DNA of 64,000 bases from Cytobacillus oceanisediminis (GTDB lineage: Bacteria > Bacillota > Bacilli > Bacillales > Cytobacillaceae): the NCBI RefSeq assembly GCF_022811925.1, contig NZ_CP065511.1, positions 1 through 64,000 on the forward strand, written 5' to 3'. How positions within the stretch are numbered: the first letter of the stretch is position 1; the number at the start of each line of letters is the position of its first letter. The notes beneath the pieces were generated by a model, which searched no databases, had not been told where the DNA came from, and saw nothing but the letters and a program-made list of their open reading frames with translations. This document shows, one piece after another, positions 827 to 37,966 of the stretch. A program made the position numbers and the translations under genes.

Positions 827-936
827 TATCGGTCAGATTGACTTGCATATCGGTCAGATTTCATTTTTATCGGTCACTTTTTTCATATATCGGCCAGATT
901 ACAATTTTATCGGTTAATTTATAAATATATCGGTCA
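827..936 (+). repeat. Array 1: six TATCGGTCA motifs at 20-21 bp period
   Basis: TATCGGTCA or a one-base variant starts at 827, 848, 868, 888 (TATCGGCCA), 908 (TATCGGTTA) and 928. The spacers are 11-12 bp, AT-rich and all different. The array fills the gap between the mbl terminator and the flhO start. The same six-copy arrangement recurs at 36869-36979. Function unknown; the two-helical-turn spacing would place all motifs on one face of the DNA. Confidence 0.9.
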
Positions 937-972
937 CTTCGCGCCAAAACAGCGTTTGAGCTGTTCCCAAAA

Positions 973-1004: not shown

Positions 1005-2006
1005 TTATACAAACTTCTTCTTCGGAAGCTTATCAATATTATCAAGCATGATGCCAGTTCCAACGGCAACGCAGTCCATCGGGTTTTCAGCAATTAAGAC
1101 AGGGACTTTCAGCTCTTCAGCCAAAAGCTGGTCGATTCCGTGAAGAAGGGCGCCGCCTCCTGTTAAAATAACCCCGCGGTCAATGATGTCTGCAGACAGT
1201 TCAGGCGGAGTGCGTTCCAGCACGCTTTTAGCCGCCTGTACTATGACATCGACGGATTCTGCCAAAGCACCCTGAACTTCTTCGGAACGAACTGTAATGG
1301 TTCTTGGAAGACCTGACACCATGTCACGGCCGCGGATTTCCATTTCCTCATTTTTGCCTCCAGGGAATACGGTCCCAATGGTTACTTTAATATTTTCGGC
1401 CGTTCTTTCGCCGATTAGAAGCTTGTACTCTTTTTTGATATATTGAAGAATTTCATTGTCAAATTTATCACCGGCCATCTTTATGGATGAAGACGTAACA
1501 ATGTCTCCCATTGATAAAACCGCCACGTCTGTTGTACCGCCACCGATATCGACAACCATGTTTCCGCTCGGCTGGAAGATATCCATGCCTGCTCCGATTG
1601 CCGCAACTTTTGGTTCTTCTTCAAGATATACTTTTTTGCCGCCGCTTTTTTCAGCAGCTTCCCTAATCGCCTTCTGCTCAACACCTGTAACATTTGTGGG
1701 GCAGCAGATTAAAATGCGCGGCTTTGATAAGAAGCCTTTAACATTCAGTTTGTTGATAAAATGCTTCAGCATCGCTTCTGTCACATCAAAGTCGGCAATA
1801 ACCCCGTCTTTTAACGGGCGGATTGCCACAATGTTCCCTGGCGTACGTCCGACCATGCGGCGCGCCTCTTCACCTACGGCCAGTACTTTGTTTGTATTTT
1901 TATCAATTGCCACTACAGATGGTTCATTCAGCACAATTCCGCGACCTTTAACGTGGATTAGCACGTTGGCAGTTCCTAAATCAATCCCAATATCCCTAGC
2001 AAACAT
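1005..2006 (-). CDS. mbl: Rod-shape actin homologue Mbl (MreB family)
   Basis: A 333-residue MreB-family protein, the same length as B. subtilis Mbl. Nucleotide-binding motifs of the actin fold are visible: DIGIDLGTANVL at the N terminus (phosphate 1), DIGGGTTDVAVL (phosphate 2) and ILTGGGALLHGID (adenosine). It forms membrane-associated filaments that guide lateral wall synthesis. The start at 2006 is chosen over an upstream in-frame codon at 2048 because AAGGAGG sits just ahead of MFARDIG and family members begin there. It lies between spoIIID and flhO, the B. subtilis order, which supports Mbl over MreB or MreBH. A terminator follows directly. Confidence 0.96.
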   Translation of the reverse strand: MFARDIGIDLGTANVLIHVKGRGIVLNEPSVVAIDKNTNKVLAVGEEARRMVGRTPGNIVAIRPLKDGVIADFDVTEAMLKHFINKLNVKGFLSKPRILICCPTNVTGVEQKAIREAAEKSGGKKVYLEEEPKVAAIGAGMDIFQPSGNMVVDIGGGTTDVAVLSMGDIVTSSSIKMAGDKFDNEILQYIKKEYKLLIGERTAENIKVTIGTVFPGGKNEEMEIRGRDMVSGLPRTITVRSEEVQGALAESVDVIVQAAKSVLERTPPELSADIIDRGVILTGGGALLHGIDQLLAEELKVPVLIAENPMDCVAVGTGIMLDNIDKLPKKKFV

Positions 2007-2527
2007 TTCTTTTTTCCTCCTTGCAAAATGGCCAGCTTCTGTCCGCACCTTTGAAGGCTCTCTCTATTTAGGCATTCTTAAAGCGAACTTCGCTTATTAA
2101 TTTTTTAGTTAGATGTTCAAGTCATTATTCGTAACAGCAGTTTAAGCCACGCAAAAAAATCAGTTCTTTTTAAAAAGAAATGATTTTGCCCGGCGTTCTC
2201 TTTAGGAGTCCTAGTCTTTACGAACCAAGTTCTATCCTAATTTTATATTTTAACACATTCCTTGTGAAAGCAGTAACATTTTGACAGATTTTGTGAGACT
2301 TTTTAAGGGTTTTTGTCGAAATGGGGAAATTGATGCAGGCGACTTAGGAAGGGGCTTAAATCCATATAGCAAAGCCTTGGATCAGGCCATGGAAACAGCT
2401 TATGATCTTTTAGCCCCCGGAGCCGCATGAAGGTTCATCTTGTACAGCAAAAGAAAAATTGCCATGACACAGCTAAAAACGGCAGCCTTTAGCCTTCGAC
2501 GCCTTTATCAGCGCCTTTTGATTCTTT
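2007..2527. other. Intergenic region between spoIIID and mbl
   Basis: About 520 bases without a convincing gene. It holds an AT-rich terminator-like hairpin at 2153-2186. A short plus-strand open stretch ends at the TGA near 2430 and has no start or ribosome binding site; it could be decayed coding DNA. A promoter for mbl is expected here, but I could not identify one. Confidence 0.5.
2153..2186 (-). terminator. Possible terminator downstream of spoIIID
   Basis: AAATCA then TTCTTTTT (2157-2171) pairs with AAAAAGAA then TGATTT (2172-2186) with one mismatch. The minus strand ends in a T-run. The stem is AT-rich and lacks a clear loop, so the call is weak. Confidence 0.4.
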
Positions 2528-35576: not shown

Positions 35577-36089
35577 TTAGATCACCTTCTTCCCGGTCTT
35601 AGCCTCATAACGGATTTTTTCTTTTAGCTTATTAATTCCATAAATCAATGCTGCCGGGTTCGGCGGGCATCCTGGTATGTATACATCAACAGGGACAATC
35701 TGGTCGACCCCTTTTACAACTGAGTAAGATTTAACATATGGCCCGCCCGCAGTTGCACAGGAGCCCATTGCAATCACCCATTTTGGTTCAGGCATCTGAT
35801 CATACAGACGGCGGACAATTGGCGCCATTTTCTTTGTCACAGTACCTGATACAATCATGACATCAGACTGGCGGGGGGATGTACGGAAAAAAGATCCGAA
35901 ACGGTCCAAATCATAGTGCGATGAACCTACACCCATCATTTCAATGGCACAACAAGCAAGCCCGAAGGTCATTGGCCACAATGAATTACTCCGCGCCCAC
36001 GCTTTAATCTGTTCCAAAGTTGCCATAAACACATTACGCTGCAGTTCTTCCATTTCTTCTGGGGTAATATTATCCAACTTTAAATCCAT
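35577..36089 (-). CDS. nuoB: NADH-quinone oxidoreductase subunit B (cluster N2)
   Basis: 170 residues. It carries the tandem-cysteine motif [10 protein letters not shown] and the later cysteines in [11 protein letters not shown] and [17 protein letters not shown], which together bind the N2 4Fe-4S cluster that donates electrons to quinone. The start at 36089 (MDLKLDN) is preferred over the ATG at 36110 because AAGGTG is correctly spaced only for it. It overlaps the end of nuoA by 10 bases. Confidence 0.96.
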
Positions 36090-36454
36090 TTCAGCACCTT
36101 CTTTTTCCATGCATAAACAAGTCCAATTACTAGCATAAATACAAAAATCAGCATCTCAATCAATGCAAAAATTCCAAGTTTCTCATAGGCCACAGCCCAC
36201 GGATACAAAAATACCGTCTCTACATCAAAAATGACAAACATCAGGGCAAAAATATAATAGCGGACATTGAACTGCACCCTCGAATCATGGAATGGCTCAA
36301 TCCCGCTCTCATATGTGGTATACTTCGTATCATATGGCTTATAGGGCCGCAAAAGCTTGCCCAAAAACAAAGCCACCACAGGCAGTAAAATTCCCAGGCA
36401 CAAAAACACAAAAACTATCAAATAGTTATTCTGATATAAATTCCAAAGCTCCAT
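36080..36454 (-). CDS. nuoA: NADH-quinone oxidoreductase subunit A
   Basis: 124 residues with three membrane helices. Family features include [29 protein letters not shown], the [46 protein letters not shown] block, and the C-terminal [13 protein letters not shown]. The start at 36454 follows GGAGGGG six bases upstream; the in-frame ATG at 36460 would be too close to it. First gene of the operon, with a SigA-type promoter 57 bases upstream. Confidence 0.96.
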
Positions 36455-36510
36455 GCCCATCCCCTCCAATGCTGAAAATTTTCACAACATTTAAACATGT
36501 AACCGTAACC

Positions 36511-36539: not shown

Positions 36540-36868
36540 CACAACCTCAGACTATTATTGGAAATTCTCGCTAGGCGCCAAATCGGGTCGCCGAGAGAGA
36601 ATTTACATACGCAGTTTTAAGCCTGTGACACACCTTCCCTAGATTATATGAGCTTGCCCCCAGTCAATATCCATTAAATTCTTCTTTATATTCATCTACC
36701 ATTAAAAATTAAACTTCCAGCTTTGTCAGTGAGTTATCTAACACCTTAGAGGATTTTCATTAAAAACTTATTTATATATCTTTTTTATCTCTAAAAAAGT
36801 GACACTTCTTATCCTGAAACTTCTTATGTATATGCTGTTTTTTAAAATAAAACCTTGTTCCTCAAGTT

Positions 36869-36979
36869 TTTCGGTCAGTTTTCAGCGTTTATCGGTCAAA
36901 TTAGAATTTTATCGGTCAGAATTGTATTTTATCGGCTAGTTCTGCTCTTTTATCGGTCACTTTTCCAATTTATCGGTCA
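36869..36979 (+). repeat. Array 2: six TATCGGTCA motifs at 20-21 bp period
   Basis: Motifs start at 36869 (TTTCGGTCA), 36890, 36910, 36930 (TATCGGCTA), 36951 and 36971, with different AT-rich spacers of 11-12 bp. It lies in the divergent region between nuoA and the LysM-3D gene. Copy number, motif and spacing equal those of array 1 at 827-936. Confidence 0.9.
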
Positions 36980-37249
36980 GTTCCAGTTCAATCAACATTA
37001 CAGCATTAACATGTTGTCAATATAAAACACTTACAAAAGTTTCTATTTAAACCATCTTAAGGATTTAATATATCAAATATGACCATTTCTAATGCTTTTT
37101 GTTCATCTATTATGAACATTATTATGTTTTGCCATTTCTTCGTTAATTTCCTGAAATGTGCGTAATTGAATTATAACTTCCCTGTTCTTTTTCTCAGAAT
37201 TTTCTGTGCTAGCATAGAAATTGTCAACAAAGCTATTAGGAGGTTTAAT

Positions 37250-37966
37250 ATGAAAAAGTATTTTTATTATCTGCTCGCAGCTATAACGATCTGGAGTACT
37301 GCAGGTGTGAGCGCATATGCAGAAGAAGTAACGGTAAACAAAGGGGATACCCTGTGGTCCATAGCACAAAAACATGAAGTGTCCGTTCAGGATATTAAAA
37401 ACTGGAATGGTCTAACTGGCGATTTGATTCATCCAAATGATAAACTCGATGTTTCACCTGAAGAAATATACATAGTAAAATCCGGTGATACGCTATGGAA
37501 TATTGCCAAAACATACGGTATTAATGTACATAACCTTAAAAAATGGAATCAGCTGAACTCAGACCTTATTAAACCTGGTTTAGAGCTTATCATCTATAAA
37601 AATGGCTCAGCGAAGGAAACAAAACCTAAAACAGTTGTAAAAGCTGCTAACACAGAACAGCCTGCAGCTGAAGAAGGCAAAAGCCTGACTGTCACCGCAA
37701 CTGCCTATACAGCCAGCTGTGAAGGATGCATCGGCATTACAAAAACAGGAGTAAATCTTATTGATAACCCGGATGCAAAAGTAATTGCGGTGGATCCGGA
37801 CGTAATTCCTTTGGGTTCTATAGTATTTGTAGAAGGATACGGCTATGCTACTGCCGAGGATATTGGCGGAGGAATTAAAGGAAATGAGATTGATGTGTTT
37901 ATTCCTGCCACATCAGATGCCATGCAATGGGGAAGAAAAGAGGTAAAAGTTACAATTCTGAATTAA
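37250..37966 (+). CDS. Secreted LysM-3D domain protein (YocH-like)
   Basis: 238 residues. A signal peptide (KKYFYYLLAAITIWSTAGVSAYA) is followed by two LysM domains (VTVNKGDTLWSIAQKH..., about 26-68, and YIVKSGDTLWNIAKTY..., about 73-118), a linker and a C-terminal 3D domain (about 145-238) with its three aspartates in VIAVDPDVIPLGS, AEDIGGGIKG and EIDVFIP. Such proteins bind and probably cleave peptidoglycan as MltA-like transglycosylases. The start at 37250 follows TAGGAGG; an upstream frame to 37166 has no site and no signal. A hairpin follows the stop codon. Confidence 0.92.
   Translation: MKKYFYYLLAAITIWSTAGVSAYAEEVTVNKGDTLWSIAQKHEVSVQDIKNWNGLTGDLIHPNDKLDVSPEEIYIVKSGDTLWNIAKTYGINVHNLKKWNQLNSDLIKPGLELIIYKNGSAKETKPKTVVKAANTEQPAAEEGKSLTVTATAYTASCEGCIGITKTGVNLIDNPDAKVIAVDPDVIPLGSIVFVEGYGYATAEDIGGGIKGNEIDVFIPATSDAMQWGRKEVKVTILN

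Follow-up and report, generated by a model that had tools for sequence, protein, structure and literature searches.

What is a row of six short direct repeats doing between nuoA and a cell-wall gene of Cytobacillus oceanisediminis: does it serve the two genes that it separates, or does it belong to the chromosome at large? An earlier reading made from the letters alone (the sequence-only reading) had taken it, together with a second array 36 kb away, for a pair kept by selection on a motif and its spacing, and had implied control of the adjoining genes. In the window, i.e. the whole 64,000-nucleotide stretch of DNA that was analysed, this array (A2) consists of six 9-bp motifs, all on the + strand (36869-36979), which start at 36869, 36890, 36910, 36930, 36951 and 36971, in steps of 21, 20, 20, 21 and 20 bp; positions, orientation and spacing are thus as had been read. 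Four of the six units (36890, 36910, 36951 and 36971) are exact copies of TATCGGTCA; the unit at 36869, TTTCGGTCA, departs from it by one change and that at 36930, TATCGGCTA, by two. Array A1 also has six units, in agreement with the equal copy number reported for the two, and A2 does lie in a divergent gap, with nuoA (-) to its left and a gene for a protein with LysM and 3D domains (+) to its right. The window contains 8 exact 9-mers, four in each array, as against 0.24 expected, and none of 100 dinucleotide shuffles reached this number (shuffle mean 0.24). The features referred to below are:

36869..36979, + strand: array A2, six units (motif positions)
36980..37023, + strand: 3′ tail of A2, gttccagttcaATCAACATTacagca..., resembling the tail consensus of 51 arrays
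36080..36469, - strand: nuoA (PF00507; Pfam), left neighbour of A2
36539-36511, - strand: nuoA promoter-like site with 11 of 12 consensus letters, ~330 bp from A2
37250..37966, + strand: LysM + 3D-domain protein (PF01476, PF06725; Pfam), right neighbour of A2
827..936, + strand: array A1, six units in steps of 21, 20, 20, 20 and 20 bp, between a flagellar basal-body rod/hook-type gene and an mreB/mbl gene (Pfam)
937..960, + strand: tail of A1, CTTCGCGCCAAAACAGCG..., degenerate
1005..2048, - strand: MreB/Mbl (PF06723; Pfam), neighbour of A1

Upstream of the nuoA promoter-like site, an inverted repeat (AAATTCTC ... GAGAATTT) occupies window positions 36562-36604. In relatives its arms are mostly kept and its loop is strongly variable, with an insert of ~100 bp in the loop of one genome (G037).

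A dispersed family of one design

A search of the 5.58 Mb genome for the pair pattern ATCGGNNA-N10-13-ATCGGNNA gave 76 matches, as against 3 for the reversed pattern. Chaining of units in the two window regions and in 19 further regions chosen for this step gave at least 22 arrays in the chromosome, 12 of the 22 with exactly six units. A1 and A2 are therefore no special pair, as the sequence-only reading had treated them, but two among many. A second flavour, with the motif T(A/T)(T/A/C)CGGCCA, is stepped at 21 bp, frequently has four or five units and occurs alone (e.g. beside eno) or adjoining first-flavour arrays; in one other genome (G030), the array beside eno is of the first flavour.

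For consensus building, 51 arrays were picked from 129 chains by length, motif and unit number, a set that includes orthologs and a few chance chains. Across the 129 chains, units are spaced by 20-21 bp or double that in nearly all cases, with a few steps of 19 or 22 bp, i.e. the helical phase is constant, and 21 of the 51 arrays have the exact steps 21, 20, 20, 20, 20. The consensus of these 21 reads TATCGGTCA-CTTTcacAgGTT-TATCGGTCA-GATTTT.ATTT-TATCGGTCA-CTTTTtCaATA-TATCGGTCA-gATTTcaaTTT-TATCGGTCA-CTTTTtCAATA-TATCGGTCA. A tail follows, for which the 51 arrays give the consensus cTTcGCGt.atATCAaCaTTccAg.A, and some arrays carry an alternative tail with CCGGGC instead. Inspection by eye of the consensus flanks of the 51 arrays revealed no evident inverted ends, and the nuoA gaps with and without the array have diverged too far for a junction to be read.

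The spacers follow a pattern of their own, slot 3 resembling slot 5 and slot 2 resembling slot 4. Among the 12 six-unit arrays of the C. oceanisediminis genome, mean spacer similarity is 0.48 within the same slot, 0.44 between other slots and 0.35 after composition shuffling, with the slot effect reached in none of 500 slot shuffles. Likewise, spacers of the same parity are more alike than others in these 12 arrays (0.487 vs 0.437) as well as in 13 six-unit arrays from a collection of genome contigs (0.674 vs 0.508), some of which are orthologous to one another or to the former and hence not all independent; in neither set did any of 300 shuffles reach the difference. Such slot-specific and alternating similarity argues for a single element, made of 40-bp dimers, of which the arrays are old copies. 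Its ~110-155 bp run from a head unit through ~40-bp dimers, each pairing a C-type with a G-type unit, to a last unit and the recurrent 3′ tail. A2 is a worn copy, with spacers that match their slots poorly and a tail (36980-37023) that matches better, and its likeness to A1 is weak (0.33, 0.64, 0.36, 0.50 and 0.55 by slot vs 0.37 expected). Hence, the spacers of A1 and A2 are different letter for letter, as had been claimed, but for the family as a whole 'unrelated' is not an accurate description; that the two did not arise by recent duplication is borne out, the arrays being old copies of one element instead.

Two arrays of Peribacillus tepidiphilus (L134 and L161), with 51 and ~23 units, have steps that mostly alternate between 20 and 21 bp, i.e. 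a 41-bp dimer repeat.

Surroundings in the genome and occurrence in other lineages

Judged by the nearest long ORFs and read by hand, 14 of the 22 arrays lie in co-directional, 6 in convergent and 2 in divergent gaps; mechanical ORF calls give up to 4 divergent cases (L182 in one, L176 and L187 in another). A crude baseline, taken from 20-kb stretches of the relative G060 plus the window, comprises 89 co-directional, 27 divergent and 22 convergent gaps. By these counts, the family has no promoter preference. Nor is there a preferred orientation, 6 of the 14 co-directional arrays running with their genes and 8 against them: the arrays are dispersed, intergenic and orientation-free, occurring in all three kinds of gap and both ways round. 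A terminator-like hairpin is found within 150 bp of 12 of the 22 arrays and of 171 of 1833 control positions, the latter mostly coding. In Sporosarcina thermotolerans, 9 of 16 arrays are convergent and none divergent, and a recount with complete ORFs and gaps of at least 100 bp gives 3 convergent of 11. A lean of the arrays to gene ends is only suggested by these figures, and we are unsure of it.

The neighbours are mixed, including genes for lipoyl transfer and an oppF-type ABC protein, a catalase gene, pta, rpsF, ychF, serS, spoIIE, purF/purM and eno. Across 44 flanking-ORF entries (one ORF counted twice), with an NCBIfam scan of 30 proteins, 23 of which matched, and Pfam assignments for the four window neighbours, no functional theme emerged.

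One second-flavour array (L181) separates purF from purM and is probably transcribed, which would suit a structured or protein-binding RNA element at transcript ends, as would the weak self-pairing of AUCGGU via G-U pairs. However, Rfam at gathering scores gave no match in the window, the fold z-scores of A1 and A2, computed for either strand, were unremarkable (0.23, 1.05, -1.44 and -0.08), the consensus energy of 12 aligned arrays was -1.67 and 0 kcal/mol for the two strands, and arrays have no preferred orientation relative to genes. We see only a slim chance for an RNA element.

With regard to chromosome position, all first-flavour arrays lie outside an arc of 2.4 Mb (1.14-3.55 Mb), within which three single pairs are found, a chance-like number equal to the reversed-pattern control count of the whole genome; parS-like sites lie at 125-491 kb. 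A role as origin-bound chromosome sites was considered and rejected, since the bias is repeated neither in S. thermotolerans, with 15 array sites round the chromosome, nor in another genome (G061). With the S. thermotolerans arrays spread round the whole chromosome, no general role of position can be drawn from the arc.

Beyond this genome, the strict pair pattern is present in 38 of 193 family genomes and in 24 of 36 within the genus, with one reversed-pattern match in total. Carriers among the GTDB matches listed, which also include chance pairs from unrelated phyla, belong to Cytobacillus, Sporosarcina, Metabacillus, Peribacillus, Gracilibacillus and Heyndrickxia. Arrays reach ~37 units in Bacillus litorisediminis and 51 in P. 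tepidiphilus. S. thermotolerans, which NCBI places in the family Caryophanaceae, not Bacillaceae, has 41 motif pairs vs 0 for the control; its unit is TATCGGTCA plus twelve bases with a step of 21 bp, one of 22 bp excepted, its spacers differ from those of C. oceanisediminis, and Sporosarcina arrays carry a different recurrent tail, approximately TTATCGTCRTTTCRTGACCTTTGACCTAC. When flanking proteins were compared by blastp for array sites shared between S. thermotolerans and C. oceanisediminis, the result was a single match, weak and partial (33% over 141 residues). Relaxed patterns uncovered a TTCCGGTCA flavour in two genomes of the genus (G042 and G046) and, in another genus, ACCGGC/ACTGGC arrays that likewise have a 20-21 bp step and that surfaced in the control column; this ACYGGC flavour may or may not descend from the same element as the TATCGGTCA arrays.

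Two further repeats came to light alongside these. On one contig from another genus (G104, C70: 45703-46184, 51899-52379 and 96229-96749), ACCGGC arrays recur every ~217 to 237 bp, forming a higher-order repeat with alternating spacers. A relaxed-pattern match in G030 (C1:1444749-1444943) is a strict 21-bp repeat of CGGTCATGAGATTTTCCCTGA, which perhaps encodes a 7-residue protein repeat and is probably unrelated to the arrays.

Dispersed intergenic placement, indifference to orientation, patchiness and lineage-specific flavours are also properties of REP/BIME elements as described in PMC2817692, and the arrays might accordingly be non-autonomous elements kept by a Y1 (HUH) transposase of the RAYT type. 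Yet their units are direct and not palindromic, and the Y1 transposase profile PF01797 finds no match in C. oceanisediminis or in three array-bearing genomes (G043, G045 and G060), so a REP/RAYT system is barely credible here. As a driver of the family, too, a Y1/RAYT transposase was dismissed: PF01797 matches 23 of the 36 genus genomes without tracking array abundance, with 0 matches in C. oceanisediminis. Two other origins were set aside. Phages and plasmids are poor candidates, as the 16 viral contigs with the pair pattern each have at most two exact units in the stretch examined and blastn of the A2 region (201-bp query) against phages and plasmids gave no match at E 0.01. A solitary tail as the trace of an autonomous element was sought among the 8 tail matches of S. 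thermotolerans, of which the lone one away from the listed pairs also adjoins array units.

Turnover of units and rates of change

The gap between nuoA and the LysM-3D gene offers a view of A2 through time, as it was sampled via NuoA and not via the motif: NuoA was matched in 34 of 36 genus genomes, 30 loci were covered and the 15 with a LysM neighbour were aligned, C. oceanisediminis included. Six units are present in two genomes, five in one, two in two, one unit in one and two decayed units in another, whereas 8 of the 15 have none. The sequences just upstream of nuoA and of the LysM-3D gene are alike in all 15, including the 8 without an array. The conserved copy number expected by the sequence-only reading is thus not found. 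The same reading had named absence from relatives with unchanged regulation as an outcome that would speak against it. This outcome is half realised: over half of these genomes lack the array, and the unchanged part is the upstream sequence of both genes.

These alignments bear on the reading that had been implied for A2, namely an operator array at which a transcription factor between the two promoters regulates nuoA, the LysM-3D gene or both. Operators commonly take the form of phased direct repeats, and A2 does sit in a divergent gap. On the other hand, the array is missing from 8 of 15 genomes in which the upstream sequence of both genes is conserved, only 2-4 of the 22 arrays occupy divergent gaps, A2 is ~330 bp away from the nuoA promoter-like site, and no common pathway is evident among the genes beside the other arrays. 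A role in the expression of nuoA or the LysM-3D gene is therefore not indicated, and we consider an operator very improbable.

At 16 aligned sites of G060, the unit number is unchanged in 5 (including L181, whose spacers are unlike) and reduced in 11, down to one or none, and whole-unit gains and losses are seen in G055 and G045 too. This instability implies that six copies are not strictly needed. At L181 itself (second flavour, purF/purM; G000:C1:591524 region), the G060 array has other spacers, similar to those of an array in G035, as if alleles had been exchanged.

Motif and spacer rates were compared in three relatives (G055, G045 and G050). Of 40 array loci taken from them, 30 match array loci of C. 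oceanisediminis, three of these weakly; arrays are thus often inherited at orthologous sites. The 10 loci without an ortholog and the three weak pairs were dropped, the second L192 array yielded no letters against L258, and only arrays with at least four units were used. For motif, spacer and flank in turn, the proportions of letters that differ were 0.066, 0.153 and 0.142 in G055 (11 arrays), 0.059, 0.151 and 0.158 in G045 (12 arrays) and 0.157, 0.397 and 0.392 in G050 (4 arrays, including the poorly aligned L177), i.e. the motif changed 2.3-2.6 times more slowly than the spacers. These loci had been found through the motif pair, such that collapsed arrays are under-counted, and for this reason the best pair of adjacent units was removed from every array. 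The motif still remained below the spacers, at 0.091 (p = 0.0064) in G055, 0.084 (p = 0.0017) in G045 and 0.207 (p = 0.00023) in G050.

In G060, whose loci were partly chosen by synteny, 37 of 587 motif letters, 72 of 588 spacer letters (0.122) and 146 of 1608 flank letters (0.091) differ over all loci, the flanks here being slower than the spacers, unlike in the other three relatives. These totals include L181, with its unlike spacers, and L178, where the array and much of the flank are gone; 7 of the 22 arrays had no ortholog in the compared set, one of the 7 being A2, which is covered by the nuoA-gap alignment. In the small set of five loci found blind to the motif (A1, L174, L178, L185 and L186, of which L178 gave no letters; L179, found via a listed motif pair, was excluded), motif and spacer change equally (10/125 and 10/114). 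Because of this equality, we grade selection on the 9-mer as likely and not as proven. The earlier proposal of selection on motif and spacing accordingly stands in part: it is upheld by the slower motif in three relatives and the constant 20-21 bp step, and it is not upheld by the motif-blind loci of G060.

The main rival explanation is a neutral or selfish decaying repeat, an interspersed minisatellite whose copies were spread long ago by a transposase since lost and whose units change by slippage, with no function for the host. Frequent gain and loss of whole units would be expected of it, and it would readily accommodate the 8 of 15 aligned nuoA-LysM gaps that lack the array with upstream sequences alike, the absence of a theme among the neighbours, the patchy presence in 24 of 36 genus genomes, flavours that vary by lineage, and the equal motif and spacer rates in the motif-blind loci of G060. 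It does not account well for a motif that changes more slowly than the spacers in three relatives even after correction for ascertainment, or for the recurrence of the same 9-mer and 20-21 bp step, with different spacers, in other genera and another NCBI family. All in all, we regard a functionless minisatellite as somewhat doubtful, with a chance that is nonetheless substantial.

A candidate docking platform and known systems

An element of common design, inherited at orthologous sites, gaining and losing whole units, lying between genes in either orientation and, in three relatives, slower to change in its 9-mer, is best explained in our view as a BIME-like intergenic element with candidate protein sites phased at two helical turns; taken as a whole, this platform reading has about an even chance of being right. 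A short motif that is read, a phase that is kept, indifference to orientation and neighbouring gene, and dispensability fit best with a cooperatively acting DNA-binding protein. Each unit would be a putative docking site for a sequence-specific protein and, with units two helical turns apart, several molecules might line up along the same face of the helix, with cooperative binding. A filled platform would then act on DNA topology or on domain boundaries close to where transcription units end, instead of on one promoter. The element may have spread in an ancestor and been lost or eroded in some lineages. If purF and purM form an operon, the array between them would be transcribed, which fits poorly with a roadblock or a boundary.

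A bolder version, which we put forward as speculation that is rather unlikely to hold in full, would see a fast-evolving DNA addressing system of Bacillales, in which a putative sequence-specific protein with a drifting motif (TATCGGTCA, TWACGGCCA, TACCGGCCA, TTCCGGTCA and ACYGGC being its flavours) polymerises on two-turn-phased arrays and thereby marks or insulates the ends of transcription units.

A literature search by motif strings and by words found no paper on these arrays among those listed. They would constitute a family of intergenic repeats, in Bacillaceae and Sporosarcina, that we did not find in print and that carries its own ruler of two DNA turns. Since close relatives differ naturally in the presence, decay and loss of arrays, the function of an array is open to experiment, and the motif might provide a route to a new chromosome-binding protein. 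The family also cautions against assigning an array of this kind to the adjoining gene as its operator.

Among known systems, the RacA-bound sites of B. subtilis are likewise many chromosomal sites of a DNA-binding protein that are not tied to single promoters; they are palindromic and near the origin, whereas the arrays described here are direct and without origin bias in S. thermotolerans. The bcr repeats and MITEs of the B. cereus group, dispersed intergenic repeats of ~150 bp in Bacillaceae, resemble the arrays in being intergenic and dispersed, but the arrays have no recognised terminal inverted repeats and consist internally of phased tandem units.

REP/BIME elements are dispersed, regularly spaced, lineage-specific intergenic repeats with suggested roles in chromosome organisation and termination (PMC2817692), and the arrays share with them their dispersal between genes, regular spacing and lineage specificity. 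REP units are palindromic, alternate in orientation and are linked to RAYT transposases, whereas the arrays are non-palindromic direct repeats 20-21 bp apart in a genome in which PF01797 finds no Y1 transposase; all units of an array point the same way and no significant fold was found. Of the published direct repeats with a patchy, intergenic distribution that we found, the nearest to the arrays are the TAACTGA repeats of Beggiatoaceae, which also occur in Cyanobacteria and Bacteroidetes (PMC4679880). Like the arrays, these are short intergenic sets of direct repeats, usually in few copies, patchy across distant lineages and drawn out into long arrays in some species. They are built of contiguous heptamers placed mostly just upstream of start codons, whereas the arrays of C. 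oceanisediminis and its relatives are built of 9-mers with spacers of 11-12 bp and a recurrent tail, and show no preference for start codons.
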